A stretch of 64,000 nucleotides of DNA, taken from Beroe forskalii (taxonomy: Eukaryota; Ctenophora; Nuda; Beroida; Beroidae). The stretch is taken from NCBI GenBank assembly GCA_011033025.1, contig WFMF01000051.1, positions 702,215 through 766,214 of the forward strand, given 5' to 3'. Both the position numbers and the translations under genes were made by a program. Below, one piece after another: positions 10,501 through 58,270 of the stretch (positions within the stretch are counted from its first letter, which is position 1; every line of letters begins with the position of its first letter). The notes beneath the pieces are model-generated. The model did not search any database and was not told the DNA's origin. It saw nothing but the letters and a program-made list of their open reading frames with translations.

Positions 10501-13500
10501 TTTCACACGATAGGTGCATTAATCTGTCACACACCGTACATGTAAGCCTTGGTTGTGTTTTGGGGATTTTAATTGTACATTTTTCGCATTTCGGTCGTCT
10601 TATGGTAGAATTTACCATAAAAAATTTATGGGTGTAATAAAGCGATATTAAAATATTAATCAAACGGTTGAATGCACTCACAAATCAGCACTGCGTCAAG
10701 AACTATTAAGTCCTGCGTGACACTCAGTCGCTGATCAGGAATACTCTTTAATCAGATTAGTAATCGAGCGTAAATCTAGTTCAGAGAAATAGTGTAACTT
10801 TATTTATATTAACGTGTGTCGAACCGATATCAATATTCACAGCCACCGAGTGACACAAATTAGAGCACTCATATTAACATACTGTAGATAATATGTCGTG
10901 ACATATCGCGTACTATGGTAAAGATTTCATTTGTCTAGCTGTGTACTTAATTATTTCATTATATACTAGCTCATAAGTTACTAAAATAGACGCTGAACAA
11001 AGTATGAATATTAGCCTGTCATTACGCTTGTAATCTTACCTACTACCAACACAAAGAAAATTCATGTAATTATAGATTAAGCTGTTAATGCTGAGGGATA
11101 ATCAGTATGTGGGAAAGTGGCAGTGAAAACTAAGATATCAATAATTATCCTACGCGTGTGGGTGTAGACACAAGACGGGTTATTCCAAGCTCAGATCAAT
11201 ATTTGCAATTCGTTGTGTGATTCGCAGCACTCCATGCATTGTGAGGCAAGCGGGTCGCATAACTTTCGAAGTTAAATTTGACCTTAATTATTAACCTGCT
11301 GTTTCACTGCGTACCTGTTTGTTGTGAGTAAGGGGAAGAGGGCGGAAAATAGACGGGTATGCCGACGAGCAGCTGGGGAATCAGTAACTTGTTTAAAAAT
11401 GCTTAAACTGCGTAAAGAATCTATCAAACTCATAAACATGTGCTCAACATGCTTATCATGCTTATCTGTGATCAAAAACGATTAAGAGTGCTTGTAATGC
11501 TTTGAAAATTGTTAACAATGCTAAAAGATTTTTTAAATGCTAAGAAAGATGCTTAAAAATGCTTTCAGGTGCTTCAAATGCATATAAAATGCTTGAATGC
11601 ATAATAGCCATGCTTCTCAACAGTAAAGTGTAGATATTATAGGTGCTTAAAAATTGCTTAGGGGGACTTCAAGTGTTTTAAAGTGCTTAATACATTACAC
11701 TTAAATTTATAGTCATGCTTTTGGGTGCACACATTTTTTCCCTCCCCATTGGCCTTTTTGTAAAACAAAAAGGCAAATGAGAGGGTTGGCAGAGATCGCG
11801 GTTTGGGAAGGTGAGAAATAGGATATGTGTACCTATATGAGGTCCAGGTTTGCAATACAACTACTGTAATTTCTGGAAAGTGCCCGGATTGCTCCTTTAT
11901 AATATCAGTCGCGAAAATGTCCCATGTCCGTCCGGTGTCCCACCCCCCCGAAATCACGAAATTCTTAATTTTGAAGGCTTGAAGCTGTCGATTGTCGAAA
12001 ATGTATATTATGGTCTGAATAGGCCCATCCGTGCCACGTGCTCAAACTCTCCTAAATTACGACTCATTCTAAATTAAAGGGCTGATGAAGATTTTGTGTG
12101 TCTTAAAATCTTAGGAGCGACTCGGGCTATGGGTTGGTTCTGTACTTAGTTTAGTGCCAAACTTCATAACTATTCGACTCTATACTAAATTCAACTAAGT
12201 TCGAGAAATACTATGGTCGATGTGAAAGACGAATATTGCTTTTCGGAACAAGCGACAGCATTGAAACAGAAAACGAAAGCATGAAATTTGAAAGTGGGAA
12301 ATTTCAAATCAGCCAATAACTAATTGACTAGAAAATTTCCCAGATGGCAAAGTGCAAAGGTGATTTGAGGCTTAATGAAGCTGCTTCGTATAAAAATTCA
12401 GGAAAATACAGCGCGTAAATGACCAGTGACACAATCTGATGCGAAACGTAAACCAATAGAACAAAATGGCGCGAAATCTACAACGAACTGAGTACAACAA
12501 CTTGGTAGGTACGAACGCGCGCGCAAGAATTTTAGAAAAAATGGCACGTGCCAATGCATGTTCTCGGTGGTCGCGCGCAGCAGTGGAGCAACATTTATAC
12601 TCTGACTGCGAACGACTGCGTGTTGTATCATGATGCAAAGGTGACATCAAGCACCGTGGGGGAGGGAAATTAAGCGCCTGCATACGGGAACAATGGTCTA
12701 ACAAGAATTGTGCCGGCAGGCGCAATTCTTGTTACATTGGATATAAAATTTCCGTTGTTGGTAAATTTCATGATGACAGACAATATTCAAACATTATGTA
12801 GACATTTATATTTTAGACTTCATCGCACGTTCCAATCAATAAAACGTTGTCTCAGGGGCCATTTAAAGTCTCTCAAACGACCAGTAGGCCGTCTTCCATT
12901 AGTCAAACAAGAAGTGTACTCCACAGCCAATACCAGATGATCAGTAACTAACTTTCTCGCTTGCCACGTAATGTGGATACCTCTGCGGTCTTCTTTATCA
13001 ATTACTCCCTCCAGACGCTCACTGATTCTATCGTTCAGTAGAATGGAATGTGAGTCAAAGAAAGCTAGGTTACGTATGCTCTGAGCTAGTTCGTACATGT
13101 AAGCGTTAAACTCATTGATTTCATGGTTCAACCAATCATACTTGGTATGTGCGTGTAGAACGCTATTAAACATGAATTTTGTTCTGGGGTATTTTGCGCA
13201 GGTGCGACGTAGCCGTTCACAAACCATATCCGCGAGGGTTCTAGCTGTAAAACCATAGCACGACAAGTCGTTGATGCCTGCTGAGATTATGACAGTGTTG
13301 CAGATTTCGAATTCAGGCTCAAAATTAAAGATGTCAACAAGGCGTTTATTTGATTTTTTGATGCATCGTAGGTTGGTTACTTTGTTAAAGATCGAGGTTG
13401 GGGCTGCAGACAGGATTGAGTCTGTTAGCAGCAAACAGCGCTCATGCGTACCCGCGGGGATGGAGTTAGGGGACTTGTACTCTTCAGGGCGTGTGATTGG

Positions 13501-16500
13501 AGGTGCGGGGGTGCGCTTAGGTACAACTGCCCTGAGCTTGCGGAACCCTAAAGAAATGCATGTTGCTACAGTCCTGGGGCAGCATGCCGTGTTTCAAGTG
13601 CTCTGTGAGTCTCTCGACATGCTGTAGACACTGCCATGTTTGATGTTCACAACCGTCTCATTGAGAAGGCCTACCTGGTTTTGTAGCGTGAGGTACCTGT
13701 CATTTCCTACTGAGATCGTATAGATTGTACTGCCTTCGACAATTTGCTCTTCGTCATCATTATGAAGCGGTATTTGAGATTGACCATCCGGGTAATAGGT
13801 AACTAGACAGGTATAGTCGTCGTACGAAAAATCGGGTTCAACGCTTTTCATACGATTAAGGATGAGTTCAAACAATTCGTTATCAGGGTATGGAGCTGGC
13901 TCGTGTTTCACACGACCATATGAATATCCAATAGATCCGAAATAGGCAGTTTTTCGGCTATAGGATTCTGATGTATTGAAATCAACGGCAGCGTAGATGT
14001 CCTCAGGTACTAAATCAGTAAACAAATCTTCAAACACACGACATACCGTTTCATCCACTTGTGGGGGCTCACTCACTGCTACTGGAGGGGCAATGTCGTG
14101 GTTGTCTTCCTCCTCTGGTGCTGTGACTGGGGGACGTTCTTTCAGCTTCGTCAGGGTCTCTACTGCAGCTTCGGCTCGTTTCACCAGGTATGAAAAGGAC
14201 GAAATGGTTTCAGTAACATTGTCAATAGTTTCACATAGATCATGACCGACACGTTCATTCAATACGGCTTTGATAGCGTTAAAATAACCCTTTTTGTGCT
14301 AGCAGTGGTCGTTATGTTCATATATTTTATTTCAAATTCAAGCTGATCTTCAGACAATAGGGGTAAAATGTCCAAACAAGTCTTTGGAGAAAATGTAAAG
14401 TGTGGAATGTCCAACTCACCGCCAATAGAGGCCACCCCTCCGCGGGGAGGCAGAGTGGGGGGTGTAGTGCTGATCTGGCTCGCAGGTGTGACACTGCTCC
14501 CCAGATCGGACGACCCACCCCCTGAGTCAGAAATAATGCCCTCATTTAAAGTATCAAGCGACGGTTTATGCGACAACAAGCGATCAGGTGGGCAAGAATG
14601 CCTCCGTCCCCCAGTCACAGCAGCTGCAGAATGGCCAGCGTTTCTACTAGAACTAGGTGGTGGGTTTTTAGCGCCTGTTGCTTTGGGTGGCGGTTGCGAA
14701 GATCTAGAAGCCTTAGGTTTCGTCATAATACGTAAATGTATAGCTCGTCACAAAGCAAATCAGTAAGATTTGAATACACGATGTGTGCACACGGTTGGCT
14801 GATAAGCTAATTGTTAGCAGTTGAGCTGCACGACATAATATGAAAAGATAAAATCACACTGAATATGAAAAGATAAAATCACACTGAATATGAAAAGATA
14901 AAATCACACTGAATATGAAAAGATAAAATCACACTGAGGTCACATCTTTCATCTTATCGATAATTTCATAAACATCAGAGGTTGTGTGATTGAACATACC
15001 TTCATAAACTGAGAGCAGGCGAGTCCTGTTTATAGGACTTTCGTTGAAGAATGGATTTTGCTTCAAATTCTTGAAAAAAATGTCGGTGCCAAAAAAATCT
15101 TTCAACATTGGTACGGGTAACAAAGGTAAAAAAGAATGGGATTAGTTGATCAGGTTAAGCAATGTGACCATGGCAAAAACATACTTCTTTTTGATGTGTG
15201 CCCCGATCCGAGAACAGACTACCCACCTCGTGTGGCTGATGAGAGCTATAGTAAGCAATGAACCGTGAGCAGAGGAACTAAAGACAGCTCCAAAGAGGTA
15301 GCAAACCCAACTGGATCTCCAAACACTTTCCAACATGCAATACCTCCCTTTTAATCTGATGATAAGGCCGACACTAACAATTCCTAACAGATAAAGCCCC
15401 ATTACCAAGTCATGGAAAAAGAGATTTATGAGGTATATCCGATCAGTAGCTTTGGCATTTGTAGAGCATCGCATGTTCCAGGTTTGAAAAATCTGAATGC
15501 TGTTCATGGTTATGATCAAGATAGCAATCATCCCCGTGGAGCTGGCAACTATTCTTGATTGAATAAGGAACTCAGATGATGAAAAGCCGTCTATTTGACA
15601 AGTTCCACATTCATCTGCCCCGTTGGTGCAATCCTTGGAATGATCACAGACCTTTTCCGGTGCAACCCAATCAGTTGTATTAGCACCGCAGTAAAAACGA
15701 CCTGGACAACCAATCTCATCCGCACCGGATTTACAGTCCACAACTCGATCACACAGACCATCTAAAATTGTCACATCTTCCGAGTAATAATTAGGGGAAC
15801 TAGTCGGTTCCCGTCCTACGGACGGCGAATGATGGCAGCCGCATGAGCTAACGGCCACATGTCTCTTTGACAGTGATTTGACCGTGCAAGTTTGGAGGGG
15901 AAATTCGAAACTTTAATTTCTGCGAAAAAAAGCTTCCCACGCCCCCAACGGTAACCCAATATTGCCGACAATATTCTCAAAACCTTTACTCATCATAAGC
16001 AACTCCATATAAGCGAAGGAATTTTGAAAAAATTCGAAAATCTATTTTTTTGCGAAAAAAGGGCGTGGCCTCCCACGCCCCTTAGGGTGACCCAATAATT
16101 CGGACAAAATTCTCAAAACTTGTATTCATCATAAGCAACTCAATAGCGAAGGAATTTTGAAACAATTTGAAAGTTTAATTTTTGCGAAAAAAAGGGCGTG
16201 GCCTCCCACGCTCCTCAGAGTTACCCAATAATTCGGACAAAATTCTCAAAATTTTTATTCATCATAAGCAACTCAATGGCGAAGGAATTTTGAAAAAATT
16301 CGAAAGTTTAATTTTTGCGAAAAAAAGGGCGTGGCCCCCCACGTCCCTCAGGGTGACCCAATAATTCGGACAAAATTCTCAAAATTTTTATTCATCATGA
16401 GCAACTCGATGGCGAAGGAATTTTGAAAAAATTCGGAAGTTTAATTTTTGCGCTAAAAAGGGCGTGGCCCCCCACGCCCCTCAGGGTGGCCGCAAAAAAA

Positions 16501-19500
16501 ATTCTTTATTTTTCAGATTTATTATAACTTTCTTGCAACGCGATTAAAAAATAATTTCGATGCTATCTCGAAAATGAATCGCCACATATAAATAAATAAA
16601 TATATATATATACATTAACAACACGCATTATATATAGTAAGATAAGATAAGATTACCACACAGAATATCATAATTGTGGGGATGGCCTTTCGCGACTCTA
16701 CCACAGAAATGCGTCCAGTTGCCATCCACAAACCCAGGCACATGTGAACAGTTTGTCTTGCAGAACAAAGAAATGCTGAGAGGGTTGTCCAAGAAAGTAC
16801 CTCGGATATCTTTGTCGGCATATGCAGCCAACATACAGGTATGGAGGGGATTCTGCTTGTGATGCTTGAACTTTTTACAATTCGCCCATATTTCTTTGAA
16901 AATGTGGTGACGGATCAATCCCCTGAATACCCTGCTCCCTACAGCACAGAGTTTACTCTTGGAGATGCATATTTTCCAATTTTCTCAGTTTGCAGTACAA
17001 AATGCCCCGGACAGAAGCATTCGTCTGATCCGTCCAAACAGTCCTGGATGTTGTCACAGAGCCTGCTAAAGGTAATGCACCCAGAACCATCTCTGCAATA
17101 GAAAACATCAACCGACGAACACTTGCATTCATCTACCAAACACAGAGAGGTCCCGTCACAAAGCAAACTCTCATCTTCAAACTTACACCACCAATCAGAT
17201 GACAGGAATTTTCTGTGAAACGACATATCAATCATTTGGTAAGAGAACGCATCAAAATTAAACTTGCAGTAAAAGTGATCAGCTTCCTCTGTTATGTTTG
17301 TCGTGCTACGAATGAGGAGTTCGGCAACAGTGTGCTGAGTGATAACTCCCCGAAAGCACGATTCAAAACCATCCCTGTCATCAATCAAACGATACGCTGA
17401 ATAAATGTCATCGTAATCAAAGACAATGTTGCCTGATGAAACAAGCTTCAGGAGGAAAATAATCCCGAATCTATTGATCATTGCCTCTTCTCAATGTGGT
17501 CGACAAAACGGAACACAGCCCAACTGAAGTGGAACTGCCCTAGAAGAATAGAATCGTAAATAAAATATACTGCATTTTGTACCACTCCACGTCCGATCGT
17601 GGAAATAAATATGACGTGTTATTATTTTATTAGTGCTGTAAGTTGGCTGCTGGGCAAGAACCCATGCAGCACAAGTCAGCATCAACTGCCGAGTACACTT
17701 GTCCGAGGGCTGAGGGTCGCCAAACAGGAGAGCAATCCTGCCCCTTCGATTCAGGTAAGATTAACTTATTGAGGGAATTGCTATTAAGAATCCTTGGTAT
17801 ATGATGCATACAAAATAGGACAGAGTTTTGTATGACATTACCTATATTTTTTATAGGCACGCGCTCCTTTGACACTACTTATTTCAATAATTCATGAGAG
17901 ACAGAACTTTTAAAAGCGAGAGCGGAGAGCCTTTCATTCATATCAAAAATCAAGAAGTCGTATGTTAGTATGTTATTTCTTTGTTTTATTTTTCTATACT
18001 TTTCATGCGGTATATTTATTTGTCGGAACTTTTCAGTTTTCACGCTCTCAAGAGAAGCCGCACGGTATATTCTGTATAATCTTTATAGTGGGAAAGATTT
18101 TCACACAACATTTAAATGTGCCCATAAATTGTTGGAACTTTACGACAGCAATTACTCGAAACCAAAAGGGATTAGTTGGTCGGTGGTGGTGGTGAGTTGG
18201 CTATTCAAGGATCGTTTACTGCAAAACCCGCCAGTTTCGCAGTAGATGAATTGTGAGTATTAACGACACCACGGACCCAAACAAGTCACAAACAAATCTA
18301 ATTCATAATTATTTTGAAAAAAACAATCAACTTCGATATCTGCGTTCATTGAAGTATCACCCTGTTGAAAGGAAGTAAATTATCGCGCAAATTGGCAAAA
18401 AGGCTAAAAATTGAGCTCAAAATTAGGCTTATCAAAAATTCGAAAAATCGCTCGTTACCCATATTAATTCGGTACTTCTAACGACAAAACATCCGAAGTT
18501 GAAGTCCTGAATTGGCCCCGTTCTCTCGCAAGGCTGCCAAGCAAAGCCACGAAACTCGGACTAGGGTCCTTCGGAGCATCGTAGGCTCCTCTATCGGTAG
18601 GATCTTACGAACCATTGAAGGGACTAGTCGGCCCTCTGATTAAAAGATTAAATAACTTTCTTCACCGCATTATCATAAACTAAGGGGCGTCAACTCATTT
18701 GAAAAATGTCAATTTCGACAATCAACAACATTGCTATATTCAGCTTATGTGAGAGAAGAACTTTAATTTCGAAAGGGAGGCATTATAATCAGAGATTTTC
18801 GCATATTTATAAAAGCACCACAATATTATGGTATGTTGGACAATGAATGAATATTGATCACGTGACCTAAAAAGGTACTCATGAAAAGAATAACTGACTC
18901 GATTTTAGCTACGCCTTGGCTCGAGCAGCATAAAAGTCTCGAAGATTATTGGAGAAGAATAATGATAAATACCACAACTAATATTATAATATTAACGATA
19001 ATATTACAACATTAATCGTAAATCATCTCACCTATTTACTCGCTTATTCTAATATTCTCACCTTTCCATTTACTTACCTGACTTTCTGATTTTAAGTTTT
19101 GCTGATATCTCAAAACTGTAGTTTAATTGAAATTTGATGAGTTTAAATTGAGAAATTGAATTTCATCTATCAAATTTTATCAATTTGATAATTACCCGGG
19201 GCCTGGGCCTGGGACTGGGCCTTCTAGGCCAATGGGTCTAGGTGATTCAAATTGGGACTTCATGAATCATAGATTCCTGAAAAGCACAGGTCTAGGTAAT
19301 TTAACGTAGGCCATGCAAGCCAACAGGTCTAGGTGATTAAATTCAAATCATTATGCTATGATGGGCCATGAGAACATATGAGCCAACACGTATGTAGAAG
19401 GAAGATTGTACATTACCTAACTCTGTCCCAATTTGGACAACCTCAAAGTCAATCTCAAAGTCAGAGATAGTTGACTAAATAAGCAATGAATTACTTGTCA

Positions 19501-33169: not shown

Positions 33170-34471
33170 TCATCCACTATTTGAATGGATTGTTCTGAAT
33201 GTAAGATTGATTCTAAGACTTTTGTCATGATACTCTTTGGGTACACAATGAAGCCATTTTTCTTGGATATCTCCTTTCATAAGTAACCCTGAACCATGAG
33301 CAAGGCGAAAACCATATACGGGCTTCTTCAATTGATCATCTTTTCGGCAAAGTTCAAACCTCCTTGTTTCACCAAAACTAATTGAAGCAATAGTTGGTTT
33401 ATTGCCAAGAGACGTCTCATCATCAGCATGCCAACCGACGCAATCTTTATTGTCTCTGTATAGGTTCACGAGACATGAATTAAATGTACATTTGTAATGA
33501 TCTTCAACATCAACTTTAATTCTAGACATGATACTATTGGAACTGAATTCATGAGCTTGTAGAGTGACATAAGAATAGGTGTAAGGTGTATCTTTAGGAC
33601 CAAACCAGACACACAATCTAGGTTGTTTAATAATTTCGCCATCTCTTCTCTTGGAATGAGATTCAAAATTTAGGGAGTTCAAAAGCATATGGAGTAACTT
33701 ATCTGCCTTTGCTTTTTCATAAAATTGTTTTTTGTATGACACCATTCCATCACTCAGTGGATCGAGAATATGCTTACCTTCCTCCAAATATTGAACTACC
33801 ATAGGCTGTGGAATTGAAGTCTTATTTACTACATCGGGTTCCTTGTATGAAAAGTTGAAACACCGCTCCCCACCTGATGGTTTATTTAACTTAGCTCTTG
33901 GAATCTCCATTCTTTCCATAGATTTATTCAGTGACATAATGCAATTATTGGAAAATCTTGTTCTCCCTAGATTTCTATTTTTCGGGTTACTACTATGTGA
34001 AACAGCTCCAGTTGGTGAGTGTCTTGTAAGGTCATTTTTTACCACTGGTGAAATTTCTACTGAATCAGACGACCTATGAACCTCGACAAATGAAGATACT
34101 ATCTCCTGCTGATCTTTTTCTGTGTTTGTGTCACAACCTTCTGCATTTGAGAAGCAGAATTCATCAACTGGTTTTACTGTGCCTCCTTTCACTGATAGTT
34201 CATCATTATCCAAAGAATGAGGTTCAGATAGTTTTGTGCACATTTTTGACCTCCCTCTGCCCCTTCCTAACGATTTAAACTGATTTGCTTCCATGACTGC
34301 TGGTTGATTTATGTGTTTTGGAATCAGACTAGAAGTACCATTGGATATTGGTTGGTTGATATGATTAGGTGCACTTTCATTTTGAGAAAGTGTAGCATCT
34401 TTGTTATTAGCATTTCCATCTAAACCTGGTCTTTTGGAAGTCCCTCTGCCATAACCTCTTGCTCTCGACAT
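33170..34471 (-). CDS. ALKBH3-like AlkB-family dioxygenase (433 aa, single ORF)
   Basis: An uninterrupted frame from ATG at 34471. Residues 1-190 are low-complexity and RG-rich (GRGRGRSKM). The catalytic domain, about 205-428, ends with the hallmarks of ALKBH3/ALKBH2-type enzymes: NSCLVNLYRDNKDCVGWHAD (Fe-binding H348 and D350), PTIASISFGETRRFELC, WLHCVPKEYHD (distal H408) and SLRINLTFR (2OG-binding R420, and R426). All Fe(II)/2-oxoglutarate ligands are present. The family removes 1-methyladenine and 3-methylcytosine from single-stranded DNA and RNA. The PKEYH and NLTFRT strings are closer to ALKBH3 than to the LINE AlkB domains nearby. It appears intronless, whereas vertebrate ALKBH3 is multi-exonic; a retrocopy or intron loss is possible, and a non-coding upstream exon cannot be excluded. 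Confidence 0.88.
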   Translation of the reverse strand: MSRARGYGRGTSKRPGLDGNANNKDATLSQNESAPNHINQPISNGTSSLIPKHINQPAVMEANQFKSLGRGRGRSKMCTKLSEPHSLDNDELSVKGGTVKPVDEFCFSNAEGCDTNTEKDQQEIVSSFVEVHRSSDSVEISPVVKNDLTRHSPTGAVSHSSNPKNRNLGRTRFSNNCIMSLNKSMERMEIPRAKLNKPSGGERCFNFSYKEPDVVNKTSIPQPMVVQYLEEGKHILDPLSDGMVSYKKQFYEKAKADKLLHMLLNSLNFESHSKRRDGEIIKQPRLCVWFGPKDTPYTYSYVTLQAHEFSSNSIMSRIKVDVEDHYKCTFNSCLVNLYRDNKDCVGWHADDETSLGNKPTIASISFGETRRFELCRKDDQLKKPVYGFRLAHGSGLLMKGDIQEKWLHCVPKEYHDKSLRINLTFRTIHSNSG

Positions 34472-46560: not shown

Positions 46561-46674
46561 AGTGGTATATTAGCACTTTAGCAAAAAATGTAGCCAACCT
46601 TTGCGAGCGAAGCGAGCGGGCCTCAGAAAGTGTAAAAATTGGTCTGTGTGGAAATTTTAAATTTTTTGGATATG

Positions 46675-46855
46675 GGTATAGGTCCAAAAAATTTTGACCT
46701 ACGACCTTCAGAAGCTGAGTTATCACCGATTTTCATATGCCCATATATGGGCATACGCTAGCAAAAACAGGCGCATGCCCATATATGGGCGTATGAAAAT
46801 CGGTGATAACTCAGCTTCTGAAGGTCGTAGGTCAAAAAATTTTGGACCTATACCC
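46675..46855. repeat. 180-bp palindrome with TATGCCCATATATGGGCATA core
   Basis: GGTATAGGTCCAAAAAATTT ... TGAGTTATCACCGATTTTCA is mirrored after a short loop. CCCATATATGGG occurs in both arms. The same TATGCCCATATATGGGCATA occurs in the TTAA element arms at about 47868 and 53970. Confidence 0.9.
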
Positions 46856-47576: not shown

Positions 47577-47980
47577 TTAAGGGGGGGGGTTCAAGCCAAA
47601 TTTTTGGGAAAACACGTTTCTGAGATAACGGATGACCCAAAAGGTATACCCCGTGGGCCAACTTTTTGGCCAGGTTTAGTACCCCCAGACCCACTGGCGC
47701 CGCCGTGGCGCCGTGCCCAAATATGGGCACAAATGGGCATATTTTTCAAAAAAGCAACTTGGGCGAGATCTGAAGTGTGCAATCAATAGATAATGGTCCC
47801 TTGAGTTACCATAAAAAATTTGAAGTCGATATCTCAAAAAATGGCTGAGTTATGGCCGAAAAACGTATGCCCATATATGGGCATACGCGCGTCGCGCAAG
47901 CCAATTCTGGCCCATAACTTGGCCAAATATCAATATTTTTGAATGAAACCAACTTTATTCAATTCAATTCAATTCAATTA

Positions 47981-48481
47981 TAAGATTTTACAGCACAATT
48001 ATTGAAATATACTCTCTCTCCCTTTCTATTGGATTTATATATAGTAAGAGGCTGCTGGGTCGTGCTGAGGGCAGGCACCAAGCCAAATTAAAAATCTGTT
48101 AATAGGGCCACCCATTAAGGACTAAATATAATCGTATATATAATCACATTGTTTGGTTATGCTGCAAATATGTAAATAAATAGGGTGAAAACATAAAGTT
48201 ATACCTTCAAAACTGGTACATACTGTAAAAAAATAATTTATACTGCAAAAATAATTTATAATAATTTAATTAAAAACGTATTTACATGAGTAAGGCTGCA
48301 GTTTTATGACTTGCCGAGGTCAGGCCGCATCTGTAACATGTACACTTGCCCGAAGTCAATAAAAATTAAAATTGGGGTTAAAATTGGAGTTTAAAAATTG
48401 ACTATACCTTAAAAACAAAAAAAAACACTGCAACTTCCTGGGGAGGTTATTTTGACTAAATACTTATATAACCAGGAATTT
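47981..48481 (-). other. LINE-B 3' untranslated region
   Basis: Between the ORF2 stop and the TTGAA tail, 500 bp of AT-rich sequence with no ORF. In this retrotransposon group the 3' UTR and tail are recognised by the encoded RT; that role is inferred. Confidence 0.6.
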
Positions 48482-51436
48482 TCAAGTTCGTAGTTTGTAA
48501 ATGTAGTCAAATGAGTTATTCACTACATATCTAGTATCATTTATAGCAGAGTCTAGTAATTTAGTTTTGTAAATTTTGCCAAATACCTTTGGGTCACTGG
48601 CATTTCTTAGTTCAGATGGTACAGTGTTCCATGCTTTAGCACCTAGATAATAAAAGTTTTTAAGATTTTTTGATCTTGGAGTATAAAGATTGCAACTTTC
48701 TCCATCTCTACTGCCTCCAGAGATATAGCTAAACTTATTTATAAAATTAGAAGGGCTTTGATTGTTCAAGATCTTAAACATGTAAGATGTTAAATGTACT
48801 TGACGTCTAAGATGGAGGGGTAACCATTTCATATCGCTATAAACTTTGATACTGCTTTCTGTTTTTTCTACTCCTAATGCAATTTTAGCTACTTTTTTAT
48901 AAAGAATATCGAGTTCGTGAAGTTTAGTTTTGGATGCTCTTCCATATATAGTATCAAGATAGTCAAAGTGTGGGAGTACTAGAGAATTAGCAAACATTTT
49001 TCTAAATTTAATTGGCAGGAGGCTACTTCCCCGGTACATTGCTCCTATTCTCTTTTGTATTTTCTTTTTTATATAATCTACATGGATATCAAATCTAAGA
49101 CGATTGTCCACCATCAGCCCAAGATACTTGTAAACCTTACATTCTTTTATAGCATAATTTTCACTCAGTTTCATCTTAACAGAAAACTGGGCATTATCAA
49201 ATACTAGCAATTTAGTCTTATCTATGTTTAAAGATAATTTGTTAACACTTAACCATTTAATTATAGTTAGCATTTCTATTTTGATACTTAAATATGTCTT
49301 TCGACAGATATTTTCAAATAAGAGTGCTCCATCATCAGCAAATAAGTAAGGGCTGGAAAGGTTGCAAGCATTAACAATGTCATTGATGTATATACTAAAT
49401 AAAAGTGGTCCTAAGAGACTACCTTGTGGAACACCGAACCTAACTAGAAGATATATACTTTTTTGATTTAGGAACTTAGTAGCTTGCTTCCTACCTGAGA
49501 GATAGTTTTTGACCCATAGGATAACAGTTCCATCAACACCATAAAATTTTAGCTTGTCAATCAGAATATCATGGTCTACTGTGTCAAAGGCTTTCTTTAT
49601 GTCTAGAAATATTAGTGCAGGTGTATTACCATTACATTTACTGTCAAATATTTTATCAAACATATCTAGAGTAAGATAGGTTGTTGAGTGGTTTTTCCTA
49701 AACCCATATTGATGAGTACTCAAAATATTGTTACTTTCAAAATAACTAGTCAGTTGTTCATTAGCATGATATTCTATACACTTTGATATAAGTGGTAGAA
49801 TTGAAATAGGCCGGTAGTCATTAAGATCATTGGGGTCACCACCTTTGAATATGGGGGATACTAAGGCTACCTTACATTTTTCTGGGAACTGGCCTGTTGT
49901 AAGACTGAGATTTACTATATAAGTTAAACTAGGAAGTATAATCGGTAATATGCATTTAAGTACTTTAAGTGGTAGCTGATCAGTAATTGCTTTATTAGAT
50001 GGTAATGATAAGATATATGACTTGATTGCATCACTTGTTACCTCATTAAAAGAGTCTATATTACAATTGGTTTTCCTAGATGGCAAAAAGTCATTGTAGC
50101 TTATGTTATTGAAGATGGGGACTTGGGCATTAAGCTTAGGGCCTATTTCACAGAAGTGTTTGTTTAGGTTTTCAGCATTAACATTACTCACATCTACCTT
50201 AGGTTGGGTATTACTTGTGGACGATGAGTTAGTTGCTAGTTTTATAGATTTCCATATACCCTTAAGGTCATTCCTAGCACTTTTAGATTTAAGATCATTA
50301 ACAAGATTCTCCCGCTTATTGGCCTTTGTGATAATATTAGTAAGGTTTCGTTGTTTCCTGTACTCATCCCATGCTAGATGTGTACTAATGCACCTATGAC
50401 AGATATTACATTTGTTGCAATTGGATTCTTCTACCTTTTTAAGTTTCCTTTTGAACTTTCTATGTAGCCTATTTTTGATTTTAATAGCATCTAAACTCTC
50501 TTTAGAGGGCTTGAAGATAAATTTTTCATGATGTTTTATGGTTTTGAGAGGAAAGAAATGATCATGATATCTATTAAGGTTTGTTTCAAGGATTGAAACA
50601 GCATTGTCCACTTGGCTACTCTGAAATAAGGGGGTAAAGTCTAAGTTAGCTAAATAAGTTTGGAAGGCCTTAATATTGTTAGAGTTATAGTCATGAATGA
50701 CTTTTTTTTCAAATTTAGGAGGTTTTTCAACTTTGAATTGAAGTTCAAATTTAATGCTAAAATGATCACCTATTTGTTCCTGAAGCACTGTTGAACTGCA
50801 GAAGTCTGAATAACAGTTTGTTAGAATTACATCAATAGTGCTTTGAGTGAACTTGTTTCCTCTTTTAGCGACCCTTGTATAATTTTGGATAGTTTGAACC
50901 ATGTTGAAGGACTTAAGTGCAGAATCTAACTTCCTATAATCTAGATCAGTTATTTTGTTTTGGTCTACATTTATATCACCTATCCAAATAACTTTTTTGC
51001 CTTTAAGTTTGTTCATACATTCTGTAAAATAATCTAAGAAATCATCTAGTTTACAAAAACCTGAGGAGCGGTAGAATCCACATATGAAATAGTTACTGCT
51101 TTTTATTTTTATCCAAAGTGCTTCTATATGTGATGGGGTGTTAGGTACTTTTACTTTGTCATCATAGGCTACCTTCTTGCTAATCAACAATCCACACCCA
51201 CCTCTTGAACCAGTACCTCTATCTTTGCGTAAGAATGTATAGTTTATAGGGATATTGAGAGTATCACTAGATATAGAGTCATTGAGATTAGTTTCATTTA
51301 AAGATAAAATATCCATATCATACTTTTTAATCATATCAGAAATTTGTGTTGATTTTGAAATTCCTATTAAACCTCCCTGGATGTTGCAGTGACCAACAGT
51401 CAAATTGTGTGGGTTTGTCATTAAACTATCTAACAA
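48482..51436 (-). CDS. LINE-B ORF2: EEP endonuclease + reverse transcriptase (984 aa)
   Basis: Residues about 12-230 are an APE-type endonuclease: HCNIQGG (N18), LSLNETNLN (E48), GGCGLLISKK, WIGDINVD (D154, N156), QSTIDVILTN and IGDHFSIKF (D224, H225). A linker holds four evenly spaced cysteines, CNKCNICHRC at 340-349, a possible zinc site. The RT, about 490-770, has NDYRPISILPLISKCIE, YGFRKNHSTT, ALIFLDIKKAFDTVDHDIL (D612), RFGVPQGSLLGPLLFSIYIN and YLFADDGALLF (D701, D702), so all three catalytic aspartates are present. The C-terminal part has LHLRRQVHLTSYMFKILNN and AWNTVPSELRNA, usual in CR1/L2-like RTs. No RNase H. Together with ORF1 it would carry out target-primed reverse transcription. 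Confidence 0.95.
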   Translation of the reverse strand: MLDSLMTNPHNLTVGHCNIQGGLIGISKSTQISDMIKKYDMDILSLNETNLNDSISSDTLNIPINYTFLRKDRGTGSRGGCGLLISKKVAYDDKVKVPNTPSHIEALWIKIKSSNYFICGFYRSSGFCKLDDFLDYFTECMNKLKGKKVIWIGDINVDQNKITDLDYRKLDSALKSFNMVQTIQNYTRVAKRGNKFTQSTIDVILTNCYSDFCSSTVLQEQIGDHFSIKFELQFKVEKPPKFEKKVIHDYNSNNIKAFQTYLANLDFTPLFQSSQVDNAVSILETNLNRYHDHFFPLKTIKHHEKFIFKPSKESLDAIKIKNRLHRKFKRKLKKVEESNCNKCNICHRCISTHLAWDEYRKQRNLTNIITKANKRENLVNDLKSKSARNDLKGIWKSIKLATNSSSTSNTQPKVDVSNVNAENLNKHFCEIGPKLNAQVPIFNNISYNDFLPSRKTNCNIDSFNEVTSDAIKSYILSLPSNKAITDQLPLKVLKCILPIILPSLTYIVNLSLTTGQFPEKCKVALVSPIFKGGDPNDLNDYRPISILPLISKCIEYHANEQLTSYFESNNILSTHQYGFRKNHSTTYLTLDMFDKIFDSKCNGNTPALIFLDIKKAFDTVDHDILIDKLKFYGVDGTVILWVKNYLSGRKQATKFLNQKSIYLLVRFGVPQGSLLGPLLFSIYINDIVNACNLSSPYLFADDGALLFENICRKTYLSIKIEMLTIIKWLSVNKLSLNIDKTKLLVFDNAQFSVKMKLSENYAIKECKVYKYLGLMVDNRLRFDIHVDYIKKKIQKRIGAMYRGSSLLPIKFRKMFANSLVLPHFDYLDTIYGRASKTKLHELDILYKKVAKIALGVEKTESSIKVYSDMKWLPLHLRRQVHLTSYMFKILNNQSPSNFINKFSYISGGSRDGESCNLYTPRSKNLKNFYYLGAKAWNTVPSELRNASDPKVFGKIYKTKLLDSAINDTRYVVNNSFDYIYKLRT

Positions 51437-51651
51437 TAAAAAAGAAATGAAATAGGAATGTTGTATTTTCCAGTTGGTGTTAGGAGAGCAAAAGTCCTAC
51501 CAACGATATACCAGTATCAGTACAATGCCATCTCTTGAATGAGTTGTGAAACAGAATACTTGATAAAACTCAAGAATTATTGGTGAGAAAGTTACTTATG
51601 CTCACCACTTACTTTAATCTGGTTTTAGTTTGAAAATAAATAAGGAATTAT

Positions 51652-53328
51652 TCAAGCTTGACAATGGGCAGTGTATTTCAAATGCTTAGCTAGTCTAGTG
51701 ACACCTTGTTCATTTAGGTGAACATTATCCATACCATTACTAGAGAAAAAATTGTCCTTTCTATGTCCAGATTTAAAAGTAAAGAGGTTACGGTCAGACT
51801 CAGTTGACAACATACTGAGCTGAGGGCAGATACTGCTTAAATGTTGAACATGATTGTTCATCCAGTTGATTACTGTATTTCTTGCATAGCTGACTCGTGG
51901 CAAGATATTGATAAAGTTAACACTTGCTGATTTTGCCCATGTGTGTATGAAATGGATTAGTTCTGTAAGATCAGATTGTGATTTCTGTAGGGCTGAGTGA
52001 GACAGGCTATCTAACTTACTTGGATCAACAAAATTGGAGTTCTGAGGAAAAGGTATATTCAAAATTTTGTCTATGTCATTAGCCCCACAAAACAAAAATA
52101 CCTTTCCCACGTTGGTGGGGTCAATGCTACTGAAAGCTGGGTCTGCTTTCAGCTTGTTCAGAACACCTGAAGCTGTGGCACCTGGATATGAAAAAACCAA
52201 TGCCTCTTGTGTACTTGAGGACATTTTGTTTGGCTTTACATGCTTGAGCATACTGTCTCCAATGTACAAAGTTAGCTTCTTAGTAGTGGTTGTATTTTCA
52301 ACTGACTGAGGTGCTGGTGCTTCCATATCCATAGAAGCTGGCCTGGTTGTATTGAGGGTAGTTTGATGAGTTTGCCTGGCTGGTATTGGGGGAGCGGGAG
52401 GTTGATAGGATTGATCTTGGGTAGTAGAGGGATTAAGCAGTCTCAGTGTTATACTAATCCTGGGCAATGATGAACTGTCTGGTACTACAGAATGCTGAAA
52501 GAAATCTTGTGAGTCCCTACTCATGACAAAGATGTCTCCATGTTGTACCTCTAGTGATTGTTCTGGATAATTGTCATGTGAGAATTTGCTCTTAAATTTC
52601 AACATGCGCCTTTCTCCAAATGAGATAGTTACAATGTCTGATTCTTCAACAATATTGTGTTCATCATCTGAGTGGTAACCTAAATGATCTGTGCCATTAG
52701 TGTACTTTGTTATCAGGATACTATTATACTTAACATCTGGCAGGATGTGATGTAGGTGTTCTAGTATTTTATGAAGGTGGGCACTACTTGCTGGTATGGC
52801 CTTTGCTTTGTGTCTTACATTGTTGTAAGCGTAGTCAACTTCACCATAGTATGAAAGGGATCTGTTTTTTAACCTTGTTTCAAAACCAGTTTCCTCGTTC
52901 AATTTAGCAAGATCAAACTGAGAAAATGGTTGATCAGGGATGTGAACAAAAGGTAGTTTGACAAGAGGTACAGCATAGGTCTGTGATTGGTTCTTGCCTG
53001 AGTTCATGAATAGATTTAACAAAACATCATCCTGCCCATTAGATGATAAAACTGATGACTCCAGAGCTCTGTCAATAACATTTGTTGGGATGCTTTCAGT
53101 TTGAGTCTGGGATGTGTTATTGGGGACAGTATTGTAATCTGAACATTCTTCTGTTTGAGTTGACTGAGGTGTAACTGTTGGTGAAGATTGGCATTCAAAG
53201 TCTACTTTGTCATATGATAGGGAGTCTAATAAGTGTTCTAGTTTCCTGTTTAGTCTTCTGACTTCCTCTTTGAGCTCAAGACATTGTTCTGTGAGAGATG
53301 CACATCTCGTACAATGTGACTCACTCAT
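51652..53328 (-). CDS. LINE-B ORF1: coiled coil + AlkB dioxygenase + SGNH hydrolase (558 aa)
   Basis: Residues about 13-40 (LKEEVRRLNRKLEHLLDSL) are a coiled coil, with a CTRC pair just before. A Ser/Thr/Gln-rich linker follows. The AlkB-type domain is about 120-300: RSLSYYGEVDYAYNNVRHKA, LGYHSDDEHNI (Fe ligands H219, D221), TISFGERRMLKFKSK, HGDIFVMSRDSQDFFQHSVV (distal H279) and LPRISITLRLL (R290, R296). A Pro-rich linker leads to an SGNH hydrolase, about 351-555: YIGDSM (block I, S359), SYPGATASG (block II), FCGANDID (block III) and MDNVHLNEQG (block V, D534/H537). All catalytic residues of both enzymes are present. SGNH domains are known in CR1-type ORF1; the AlkB domain in front of it is unusual. 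Function in the element is inferred. Confidence 0.93.
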   Translation of the reverse strand: MSESHCTRCASLTEQCLELKEEVRRLNRKLEHLLDSLSYDKVDFECQSSPTVTPQSTQTEECSDYNTVPNNTSQTQTESIPTNVIDRALESSVLSSNGQDDVLLNLFMNSGKNQSQTYAVPLVKLPFVHIPDQPFSQFDLAKLNEETGFETRLKNRSLSYYGEVDYAYNNVRHKAKAIPASSAHLHKILEHLHHILPDVKYNSILITKYTNGTDHLGYHSDDEHNIVEESDIVTISFGERRMLKFKSKFSHDNYPEQSLEVQHGDIFVMSRDSQDFFQHSVVPDSSSLPRISITLRLLNPSTTQDQSYQPPAPPIPARQTHQTTLNTTRPASMDMEAPAPQSVENTTTTKKLTLYIGDSMLKHVKPNKMSSSTQEALVFSYPGATASGVLNKLKADPAFSSIDPTNVGKVFLFCGANDIDKILNIPFPQNSNFVDPSKLDSLSHSALQKSQSDLTELIHFIHTWAKSASVNFINILPRVSYARNTVINWMNNHVQHLSSICPQLSMLSTESDRNLFTFKSGHRKDNFFSSNGMDNVHLNEQGVTRLAKHLKYTAHCQA

Positions 53329-53547
53329 AAGATGTTTGGGAACACAAGTCTGATTTGTAAAATAAATATAAAAACAAACTGATTGGAGAAACGAGTTCTG
53401 TTTGAAGTAGGTGATGATGGCAAAGTTAGGTCCTCTCCTTTAACTGGTTACAACATTCCATATTTCATGACTCCCCTTAGGGGGCATTCTTGTTCTCCAT
53501 CTACCTGCTCAGTTAGTTAATTTAATATGTGTTGTGTTGTAAGTTTA

Positions 53548-53897
53548 AAATAGCGTTGAGTTACGTATTCTCTTCAAAAATTTTTGGCGCCAAAAGCGCC
53601 AAATTTTTGCCAAAAATTCGGCGCTTTTGGCGCCAAAAATTTTTGAAGGCCTAACTCAAAAATCCGAGTCCATTTGTATCTGAGGAATTTAGTCTAGTTT
53701 CACGTAAAAAAAGAATTATGCAAAAATATCAATCGTAGCGGAAGTTATAAGCGTTTGAGTAAAGAGCACTTTGGAAAAAACGCGAACTGAGAAAATGGCG
53801 ATTTTGTGGTTTTTCAGAGGTTTTTTGGACCTCAAATCGCCATTTTAGCAGCAATCAACCCCAAACTTGCAAAGAATACGTAACTCAACGCTATTTA
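53548..53897. mobile_element. MITE with AAATAGCGTTGAGTTACGTA ends
   Basis: Ends AAATAGCGTTGAGTTACGTA and its reverse complement. Inside: TTTTTGGCGCCAAAAGCGCC hairpin copies (53580-53645) and ATGGCGATTTTG / CAAATCGCCAT (53795-53845). It lies between the 5' side of LINE-B and the right arm of the TTAA element. Confidence 0.8.
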
Positions 53898-54399
53898 TCG
53901 AATAAAGTTGGTTTCATTCAAAAATATTGGCCAAGTTATGGGCCAGAATTGGCTTGCGCAACGCGCGTATGCCCATATATGGGCATACGTTTTTCGGCCA
54001 TAACTCAGCCATTTTTTGAGATATCGACTTCAAATTTTTTATGGTAACTCAGGGGACCATTATCTATCGATTGCACACCTTAGATCTCGCCCAAGTTGCT
54101 TTTGAAAAAATATGCCCATTTTGTGCCCATATTTGGGCATGGCGCCACGGCGGCGCCAGTGGGTCTGGGGGTACCAAACCTGGCCAAAAAGTTGGTCCAC
54201 GGGGTATACCTTTTGGGTCATCCGTTATCTCAGAAACGTGTTTTCCCAAAAATTTGGCTTGAACCCCCCCCCCCCCTTAAATCACAATATATGTCACAAT
54301 TGTCAGTTAAGTCACTAAAGTAAGTTTTCATATAGATGGTAGAATCTTACTGCAATACCTATTCACTCTTTGTGCAATAAAAAACATGAACATTAAGGG

Positions 54400-55290: not shown

Positions 55291-56629
55291 GGATATAACA
55301 GACCAGATTAGGCTAAGTGGGACTGATTGGCTGAACCAGATGCATGACATGGTATTATAATGTGATTCTTAATGAAATCAAAGCACTTCAAGTTGAATCC
55401 TCAACAAACTCTGAGAAGTTTGACTCCAGTATCAATGAAATCAGAAACTACCTGAATAATATTGCTAGTCCTATTGCTATCCCTCCCACAACTGGAATAC
55501 AAAATGCTCCAAGTCAAATCATTCCTGAAACACCACTACCAAAATGTGAACCATATGTAAACCTTCGCAATGACTTTCTTGATGAATCTGGATTGAATGA
55601 CCTAAATAACTATCTCTACAATGTGAAAGGTTTTCAGACTATAAAATCTAAGAATTCTAGTGGGAACGAGATGTACTATATGTTGGAGAATTCAAATACC
55701 GGTACGGGCAATAACCCATGATGCACAGGAAATTCCAAATGTCATTAAACCAATTATAGAAAAGGTCTCTGAACTGTTCCCTCATTTACACCCTGTCAAC
55801 TCCTGCCTCATCACACGTTACAAAGATGGCCAAAACATGTGTCCCTCACATAGTGATGATGAGCCATTTATTGCCCCAAAATCAAACATATTCACACTGT
55901 CAGTAGGTGGTACAAGAACAATGGAATTCACATCTGCTGATGGTTCTTTGTCTGAAAGTTGAACTTCCCAATAATAGTCTCCTCACATTTTACGTTTTCT
56001 TCTCAAGATTCCTATGAAACATGCAATCCCACCATCTGACTCATCTTCAACACGATACAACCTTACATTTAGATTGCTTGCCCCCTACTTTAAATTCAAC
56101 ATTGATTGTGGGGGACTCTAATACTGAGCATATAAACTTTGGCAGTGGAAGAAACAAATTAGGTGTTTGGCTCCCTGGTGAGAGGGTAAAGGCTGGTAGA
56201 ATCTGTAACATTCCAAAGCCAGGAGACCTCAAATATCCATATCGTCATATGGTTATTCATACTGGCATTAATGATTTACGAGCTTCTAATCACTTGCCTA
56301 TTCAGTGATAGCAAAACATCTTGATGACAAGTGTAATGCCTTGTTGAAATCATATCCTAAAATGAAAATCCACATAAGCTCTATTCTACCAACTAAAGAT
56401 TTCAGTCTGAATGCAATGGCTAACAGGCTGAATCAGTACATCATTGAAATTTCCAAACACTCAGAGAATATCTCAGTTATCTCCCATGAAAATATGGTTG
56501 ATCACACAGGTAAACTCAACAATAACCTTGGCAGGCATAACCTGATGGAACAACCGTCAAACAGGACACTGTTCACTTAGGTTCTAAAGGCATTGCACTT
56601 CTATGCATGAACCTTAAGAGGCTATTGTG
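55291..56629 (+). pseudogene. LINE-C ORF1: AlkB + SGNH (frameshifted)
   Basis: Frames 55291-55360, 55344-55721, 55660-55962, 56021-56308 and 56305-56629 are read in turn. AlkB: NSCLITRYKDGQNMCPSHSD (H-x-D kept), IFTLSVGGTRTMEF, and, in another frame, KHAIPP (distal His) and TRYNLTFRLL (Arg). SGNH: LIVGDSNTEH (block I), IHTGINDLRAS (block III) and DTVHLGSKGI (block V, near 56563). All key residues are still visible although the frame is destroyed, so inactivation by small indels is fairly recent. Confidence 0.82.
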
Positions 56630-56880
56630 AAAGATGAAATCATCAGTTGGAAGCATTGCTGAAAATAGGGGCTTTGATCAGCGAAAATAGCCATGGACCT
56701 AAATATCCATACTGGTTCCCCAATAGCCAATATCGTCCACACACTTGGCCCATCACCCAAGCATAACCCATGGACTGGAGATCACAGCTGGAACTTCAGT
56801 GATGAGGATGCCAAATCTTTAACCAACAGTGCTTGCTTTTAAAATGGTTATTAATCTTATAAATAGAGAGTTTGTGCTGA

Positions 56881-58270
56881 ATGTCAGAAGCAAATATATC
56901 TTCACCAGAGATTTTAACATGTCATTCCTGTAATGAAATAAAACATTACAAATGTGGTAAAACTTTATTAAATTTGACCATGTTAGTGATCAATGGTCAT
57001 GTATAAGTTGTAATACAGATGTAACCAATAGGTATGCACCCTTTGAGTCCATATGCCATAGTAAGTACATAGTTGATGGGCCAAGTGCATTTGAAGAATT
57101 GATAAGATAAAAACATTCTGAAAAACTGCAAAATTTTCTCAAAAAGACCTTAGTAAGAAATTTTTGGGTTTACAAAAGAACCCATTCAATCTGCTATAAC
57201 AATATTGATGGTATGTCACAAAACTTTGACTCTCTTTATTCACAGCTTTCCACTATCAATAATTCTTTTGACCTGATATCCATTGCTGAAACAAATATAG
57301 AAGAAGAGCATAAAAATCTATATCAAATTCCAAAATACCAATCTATTTGCTCCTCAAAAATAAAGGGTAAACATAAAAGGAAGTGGCCTGACTATTTATG
57401 CTAAAGAACATTTAAACTGCTCTGATAGAATAAAACACTAAGCATGACATGCAAAGATATTGAGACTCTATTCATAAAAATTTCCAACACTCAAAAGCCC
57501 ATATTATTAGGTGTTGTGTATAGGCCACCTAGTGGAAACTCTAAAACTTTTTACCAACAGTTTGAAAAAGTTCTCAACAGTATATCCTCATCATTTAATG
57601 ATTGTCATATAATAATTACTGGAGATTTCAACATCAACCTGTTCAAGAACGATTCTAATAAGTCTAAACTGGAGAACATTTTCTTTGGTAATTGTTATTC
57701 TCCTCATTTCGGTAGCTACTCATGAAAAACCTAGCTGTGAATCATCATGTATAGATAATGTGCTCATCTCAATTGATAGTGTGTTAAGCTCTGGGTATCA
57801 CATGAACTTAAGGTATCTCACCACTTCCCTATAGTTTGCTTTTGATCTTTCTGTTGACACACAGTGATGAGAAAAATGAAAAGGAATTCACTTATGACTT
57901 CTGTGAAAGTAATATCATTGAATTTGATAGAAAAATGAACTTTATCCTAGAAGGAAATCAGTATACAGCTGACGAAAAAGGTTTTAATGAATTCACTAAT
58001 CATATTAATGCAACTTTAGATGAATGCTTTAGAACTGACCCAGCTAATAAATTGAAAACAAAGCGAAACCGACTGGAAAATCCTTGGGTCACTAATGGTC
58101 TGATGAAGTCTATAAACTATAAAAACTTTTTATACAAGAAATGGAAAAGCAGCAAAAATTCAAAACTGAAATCTGGTGATCAAACTCTGTTTGAAAAATA
58201 GAAAATACAGAAAAAGTTGACCACTCTTATACGTGCTGCTAAAAGAAATTCTTTTCTAAAAATTTGATAA
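56881..58270 (+). pseudogene. LINE-C ORF2: PHD-like finger and EEP endonuclease (frameshifted)
   Basis: Begins MSEANISSPEILTCHSC; Cys/His spacing CHSC..HYKC..WSCISC is PHD-like, as in LINE-A. The endonuclease follows: CYNNIDGMSQNFDSL, SIAETNIEE, GVVYRPPSGN and ITGDFNINLF. The linker DPANKLKTKRNRLENPWVTN continues to about 58200. RT is missing here. Confidence 0.75.

Follow-up and report, generated by a model that had tools for sequence, protein, structure and literature searches.

In a 64,000-nucleotide stretch of the Beroe forskalii genome (the window), an initial annotation had proposed a LINE whose ORF1 protein (ORF1p) joins a coiled coil, an AlkB-type dioxygenase and an SGNH hydrolase, raising the questions of whether such an element is real and what an AlkB domain would do in it. 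The 558-codon open frame was confirmed: it starts from an ATG and lies on the minus strand, from 53328 down to 51652 (Table 1), and the plus strand of this interval was full of stops. It could not be a chance frame, because the protein database held 68 relatives (33–60% identity, many over 99% of its length; one with an organism name, Mnemiopsis leidyi) and an open endonuclease–reverse transcriptase frame came after it. Pfam matches to an endonuclease and a reverse transcriptase in this ORF2 identified the element as a LINE. The proposed architecture was thus borne out by the Pfam match of AlkB, the predicted fold, the relatives and the downstream ORF2.

Table 1. Features of the LINE and its insertion site (positions in the window)
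Feature	Position	Strand	Basis
Whole LINE, ~5.58 kb	47966..53547	-	Flanks compared with unoccupied arm of host inverted repeat
Copy of host spliced-leader exon (SLa), LINE 5' end	53508..53547	-	38/38 nt identical to tandem-array exon that precedes GTAAGA
Rest of 5' UTR, starting CAGGTAGATGG	53329..53507	-	In relatives, one or the other of two leaders precedes this start
ORF1, 558 aa: coiled coil, disordered linker, AlkB, linker, SGNH	51652..53328	-	Frame, Pfam, predicted structure
Long helix, residues 7-38, taken as coiled coil; C6 and C9 conserved	53215..53310	-	Predicted helix
Part of linker holding two TQT motifs (residues 57-59, 75-77)	53098..53160	-	Motif counts
AlkB 2OG-Fe(II) dioxygenase domain, residues 123-300	52429..52962	-	Pfam and predicted fold
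SGNH hydrolase domain, residues 348-556; S359, G383, N417, D534/H537	51661..52287	-	Predicted fold, residues
ORF2: APE-type endonuclease and reverse transcriptase, frame intact, first ATG 51421	48482..51436	-	Exo_endo_phos 1.9e-10, RVT_1 8.7e-30
ATTGA-type repeat (plus strand: ATTCA), LINE 3' junction	47957..47979	-	Tandem repeat, 4.6 copies, 100% match
Host inverted-repeat arm hit by LINE	47581..47963	.	364/384 positions match other arm
Second piece of occupied arm, LINE 5' side	53548-53577	.	28/30 match other arm; arm ends there
Unoccupied arm of same inverted repeat (empty site)	53867..54272	.	Arm-to-arm comparison

All residues named for the two catalytic cores were present (H219, D221, H279, R290 and R296 for AlkB; S359, N417, D534 and H537 for SGNH), and G383 was the glycine of the ORF1 SGNH set. 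The AlkB domain matched Pfam 2OG-FeII_Oxy_2 (PF13532) at E = 2.5e-19, with 70.7 bits against a cut-off of 31.2, and its structural model had the ALKBH2/3 fold, an AlkB double-stranded beta helix with lid. Residues and alignment revealed both the HxD...H metal ligands and the RxxxxxR motif; by analogy, H219, D221 and H279 would be the Fe ligands and R290 would bind 2OG. The claim of a complete SGNH core was upheld by the residues and the predicted SGNH fold but not by Pfam, where Lipase_GDSL stayed below the cut-off (E = 0.02, 15.5 bits vs 23.6). Ser, Gly, Asn and His blocks on a predicted SGNH fold make this domain an SGNH hydrolase, and a coiled coil with a C-terminal SGNH domain in the predicted structure makes the protein an esterase-type (Type IV) ORF1p, to which AlkB is an addition. 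The complete model had a pTM of 0.47, so it does not define how the domains are arranged with respect to one another.

A family alignment was built from the window protein and 57 of the 68 relatives (the 11 omitted were mostly short). R156, H219, D221, E223, H279, R290, S292, S359, G383 and N417 were invariant in it, and R296, D534, H537, C6 and C9 were conserved in at least 90% of members; P0068, one of the omitted relatives, had A instead of E223. At E ≤ 0.05, PF13532 matched 58/58 members and Lipase_GDSL_2 23/58. AlkB preceded SGNH in 69/69 proteins (the 68 relatives and the window protein), a count that is partly circular, as the HMMs were built from most of them and the SGNH HMM from the family alignment itself. 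When a more diverse alignment served as the query, 49 further proteins were obtained, with AlkB in 49/49 and Pfam Lipase_GDSL_2 in 25/49; our own SGNH HMM matched 0/49. Those named by organism came from Mnemiopsis and two Planctomycetes bins. The latter (P0194 and P0214) are probably eukaryotic contamination of metagenome bins, not proteins of bacterial origin. An ORF1-like protein, P0202, was named "alkylated DNA repair dioxygenase AlkB", likely after one of its domains. A host gene or a chimeric frame was excluded by the neighbouring ORF2, a visible empty site and the architecture kept in relatives. A viral origin of ORF1 was also rejected: an IMG/VR scan with the family alignment gave 134 pattern matches and 0 confirmed relatives, and four phage records matched the AlkB part only (27–28% identity).

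The proposed genome-wide search for other copies was run on the window's genome (216 Mb, 1134 contigs) and gave at least 83 matches to ORF1, at least 150 to PF13532 and at least 52 to ORF2. The 150 AlkB matches were those scored of 189 candidates, and at least four of them were of ALKBH2/3 type. ORF1 and ORF2 were both open in the window and in L049, L050 and L053, the ORF2 frame of L050 ending ~57 residues short of the window's. Among 36 of the 83 ORF1 matches, hand-picked as long or as reaching the C-terminal part, 21 had an ORF2 match within 4 kb downstream. Around the 150 listed AlkB matches, reverse transcriptase or ORF2 matches within 5 kb (from the best 150 of 2862 RT candidates and the 52 ORF2 matches) lay downstream on the same strand in 45 cases, upstream in 2 and on the opposite strand in 1. 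Six further AlkB frames of 615–810 aa were found in this genome (L018, L028, L029, L036, L037 and L038); five of the six had a GDSL match, all below cut-off, L029 had a weak PHD match, and L029 and L037 had a reverse transcriptase downstream by coordinates.

AlkB–SGNH pairs were also seen in other settings. A 2026-aa frame at L024/L054 (G000:C847:364911-371800) contained SGNH, AlkB, a long proline-rich stretch, DUF6570 and Helitron_like_N; by its domain content it is a Helitron carrying the pair in reverse order. The N-terminal part of L015 (C225) was the same as that of this frame. Of 20 Helitron_like_N matches, one had an AlkB match, among those listed, in the 9 kb upstream of it, and two others had SGNH only. 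In the window, the minus strand of 6937-14726 held an N-terminal frame, AlkB (13594-14262), SGNH (12820-13434) and then weak PHD/C1, endonuclease and reverse transcriptase matches, the pieces probably of another AlkB-type LINE. A degraded AlkB–SGNH LINE (55344-58201, plus strand; AlkB 55660-55962, SGNH piece 56290-56577) lay near the intact one in opposite orientation. On the minus strand of 15142-17481, inspection by eye showed frames that are perhaps a receptor gene, with hydrophobic segments and Cys-rich stretches resembling LDL-receptor A.

The selection acting on ORF1 was estimated from pairs of copies. In L002–L004, a pair of moderate synonymous divergence, dN/dS was 0.10 in AlkB and 0.10 in SGNH vs 0.43 and 0.46 in the linkers. 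Other pairs with finite dN/dS mostly went in the same direction, with dS near or at saturation. The young pair L007–L032 had relaxed ratios (AlkB 0.38, SGNH 0.52, on few changes), as expected after insertion, and lends the selection claim no support. To judge from these comparisons, AlkB is under purifying selection, with the active-site residues of both domains conserved. The fast-evolving linker in front of AlkB bore TQT motifs, which resemble anchors of the dynein light chain LC8. TQT was found in 53/106 linkers, vs TTQ in 7 and QTT in 5; the linkers were from 106 of 118 proteins (12 were too short), and the counts are not independent, the sequences being related. In two sets, 34/61 and 19/45 linkers had TQT, vs 3.3 and 2.6 expected from shuffles. 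Among ORF1 frames of the window's own genome other than the window's, it was present in only 5 of the 17 listed.

The ends of the LINE could be fixed because the host inverted repeat into which it had inserted has a second arm that was unoccupied. In the empty arm CGCTATTT was directly followed by ATCGAATAAAGTTGG, and the LINE lay between these two in the occupied arm; ATCGAATAAAG likewise came directly after CGCTATTT in the empty arm. The 5' end may lie a few nucleotides further out (to 53551), because a T run is common to target and leader, and the 3' end is ambiguous because the junction falls within the ATTGA repeat run. No target-site duplication was detected on comparing the occupied with the empty arm; some LINE clades insert without one. 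Repeats of palindromic and inverted type, with CGTATGCCCATATATGGGCATACG at their core, lay at 46674-46855 and 47581-54272 of the window. A DNA search for partial copies, in which 40 of 408 candidates were scored, revealed two (C414:69517-70709 and C1024:467368-467806, 95% identity) that started inside the 2035-base query and reached its 3' end. Starting in the 3' third of the LINE and sharing its 3' end, they appear to behave as 5'-truncated LINE copies do. On this reading of its ends and frames, the element is a full-length insertion of an autonomous LINE, with ORF1 and ORF2 both intact.

The LINE began with a spliced leader of its host. The SLa 38-mer occurred 204 times in the genome, and a reversed control 0 times. 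Contig C691 had seven SLa copies between 295387 and 298384, at intervals of ~500 bp. Three units of this array (L071) were read, and in each the exon ran directly into the splice donor GTAAGA; these tandem units were taken as the SL RNA genes for SLa. A second leader, SLb, matched the published Hormiphora leader at 36/42 bases, above all of 5000 shuffles; the match of SLa to it was weak and was reached by 2 of 5000. Rfam gave nothing in the SL array and only matches below the gathering score at ten leader loci.

Three groups of LINE bodies carried SLa or SLb (and SLb variants) at one junction. The CAGGTAGATGG body followed SLa in the window, L053, L027, L063 and L064 and SLb in L026; the ATAGGGACG body followed SLa in L007 and L032 and SLb in L021 and L031; and the (G/A)TAGGTGATGG body followed SLa in L006 and SLb in L002, L004 and L050. 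Only the body start was read in L063 and L064, the leaders of L064 and L050 were variants, and that of L007 lay ~1.1 kb upstream of ORF1. A leader scan detected none in L005, L022 and others. The leader was identical at 38/38 positions in the window, L006, L027 and L032, and the ORF1s at the last three places (C358, C1 and C472) were 42–61% identical to the window's. The first 40 bases of the LINE also preceded several different bodies, in a DNA search that scored 40 of 428 candidates. Within L055–L071, the leader stood before several other repeated bodies at different sites, for example one in L055, L056 and L061 and another in L057, L058 and L060.

The LINE thus had the marks of a trans-spliced transcript: a 5' end equal to an SL-gene exon ending at a GT donor, and the same body behind different leaders. 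Capture of a promoter from an SL RNA gene was disfavoured, as the exon alone was common to the copies, not the array's upstream sequence or the GTAAGA intron. Inheritance of the leader by descent was disfavoured as well, since within a group the same junction joined the body to different leaders. Most simply, the LINE mRNA would be trans-spliced anew in each generation, the element thereby borrowing the host's way of capping RNA; copies would begin with a nearly unmutated leader because the element mRNA had been trans-spliced to the host leader before reverse transcription. In dinoflagellates, retroposed trans-spliced mRNAs leave relict spliced leaders, with which genomic copies begin. The copy start would arise there in the same way, by reverse transcription of a trans-spliced mRNA; the present system differs in being a LINE and in the exchange of leaders among copies of the same body. 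Leader copies have been counted in other ctenophore genomes, 718 in Hormiphora and 491 in Mnemiopsis (PMC8527503).

The best explanation of the locus, at a probability of about 0.62, is an autonomous LINE in which the AlkB domain of ORF1p demethylates the template and whose mRNA receives the host leader by trans-splicing, as suggested by the sequences and structural models. ORF1p would multimerise via its coiled coil and coat the element RNA. AlkB would oxidatively strip pairing-blocking methyls (1-methyladenine and 3-methylcytosine) from this RNA or from nascent cDNA, and reverse transcription of the demethylated template would yield full-length copies. The esterase may help RNPs to assemble at membranes, a role already proposed for a different esterase ORF1p, and the element mRNA would be trans-spliced to the host spliced leader and then reverse transcribed. 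We infer the AlkB substrate from resemblance only. The present evidence does not discriminate between repair, the erasure of regulatory marks and an effect on cDNA.

The AlkB profile was far more ALKBH3/ALKBH2-like than ALKBH5-like. HxDxE, which in ALKBH2/3 contacts m1A/m3C-type bases, was present in 16/16 ALKBH2/3 rows; fold, HxDxE and RxxxxxR are common to ALKBH2/ALKBH3 and the mobile-element AlkBs. The two differed at position 234 (T in 48/48 mobile-element AlkBs vs S in 16/16 ALKBH2/3 rows) and at position 292 (S in 47/48, the other row being truncated, vs N in 16/16). A tree of 64 of the 233 extracted domains, unrooted and drawn with a midpoint root, split the 48 mobile-element AlkBs from the 16 ALKBH2/3 rows with support 95/92. 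Lying outside the sampled ALKBH2/3 rows of this unrooted tree, the mobile-element AlkBs did not group as ALKBH2 or ALKBH3 orthologues. Helitron-type rows were on a long branch. N202 was replaced in L018 (I), L036 (V), L037 (W) and L047 (Y) and was N in the others, and R156 was replaced by S in L015 and L024. Because of S292 and T234, together with A223 of P0068 and the deviant N202 and R156 rows, handling of substrate or cofactor may differ from that of ALKBH2/3. The tree and T234/S292 fit one capture of AlkB followed by reshuffling of ORF1, with ALKBH2/3 as the only comparison set. About 17 kb from the LINE lay a host ALKBH3-like gene (33170-34471, minus strand), one 433-aa frame with a long N-terminal extension; its product aligned along 99% of its length with a protein from Mnemiopsis (1.8e-126), and proteins of other named animals, many called ALKBH3, matched at 1.7e-40 or weaker. 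This alignment and the match of SLb to the Hormiphora leader both point to a ctenophore host.

Alternatively, AlkB could erase regulatory marks (m6A or m1A) placed by the host on retroelement RNA, which would be counter-silencing and not repair. The S292 state, unlike ALKBH2/3, would suit such an eraser, and an AlkB protein from an orchid Ty3/Gypsy element is able to bind RNA and to demethylate in vitro (PMC9289625). The closeness of the profile to ALKBH3 and ALKBH2 rather than ALKBH5, and the HxDxE shared with every ALKBH2/3 row, argue against it, and we consider it unlikely. Action on DNA, by repair of methylated bases in single-stranded cDNA or in the target during insertion, agrees with the top fold matches of the AlkB model, which were ALKBH2 with DNA and ALKBH3 with ssDNA. 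ORF1p is, however, generally regarded as the partner of the element RNA, and neither sequence nor model separates RNA from DNA substrates; this role seems quite improbable. That AlkB is a nucleic-acid-binding module with irrelevant catalysis, supplying an RNA-binding part otherwise missing from esterase ORF1ps (Schneider et al. found that the esterase ORF1ps in RepBase all lack an RRM and any other structural domain for RNA binding; PMC3905857), is very improbable given that the metal and 2OG ligands do not vary in the family alignment.

The preferred reading, template demethylation by a LINE-borne AlkB, was compared with known systems. Type IV ORF1ps of CR1, L2, RTE, RTEX and Penelope-like elements (e.g. 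ZfL2-1 and CR1) also have a coiled coil, a poorly conserved linker and SGNH, but AlkB is not in those descriptions: "AlkB" and "oxygenase" are absent from the main text of PMC3905857 and from PMC4120745. Esterase ORF1ps without AlkB suffice in other LINEs, and AlkB is therefore not generally needed (PMC3905857). The nearest precedent is the Phalaenopsis Ty3/Gypsy AlkB (PMC9289625). It is likewise a retroelement-borne AlkB-type demethylase, which has been shown in vitro to bind RNA and to be active, but it is of m6A eraser type and sits in an additional ORF of a plant LTR retrotransposon, whereas the present AlkB is ALKBH2/3-like, fused to SGNH in a LINE ORF1 and spread over many diverged subfamilies. 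Alphaflexi-, betaflexi- and closteroviruses, mentioned in that paper, carry AlkB domains too; they are RNA viruses of plants. Among the papers listed from the open-licence literature, in three cases 20 of 198, 3,904 and 914, none described a LINE ORF1 with AlkB, in keeping with the initial view that the architecture is not a textbook one.

A wider proposal would be that ctenophore LINE mRNAs are trans-spliced every generation and that AlkB clears template methyls, perhaps near the leader cap, so that the reverse transcriptase reaches the 5' end, AlkB–SGNH being a portable module that one Helitron or more would have in common with several LINE groups; we regard it as speculative and rather unlikely as a whole. 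We know of no other LINE group with an AlkB-type domain in its ORF1p. If the present reading is true, this would be the first known one, with an ORF1 AlkB that selection has maintained in many diverged subfamilies of a single genome. Whether base methylations limit retrotransposition would thereby become a testable question. AlkB may also fill the RNA-binding gap noted for RepBase esterase ORF1ps by Schneider et al. (PMC3905857). The 5' leader provides a sequence-level argument for trans-spliced LINE mRNAs, and leaders carried by LINEs may explain some of the many leader copies in ctenophore genomes.
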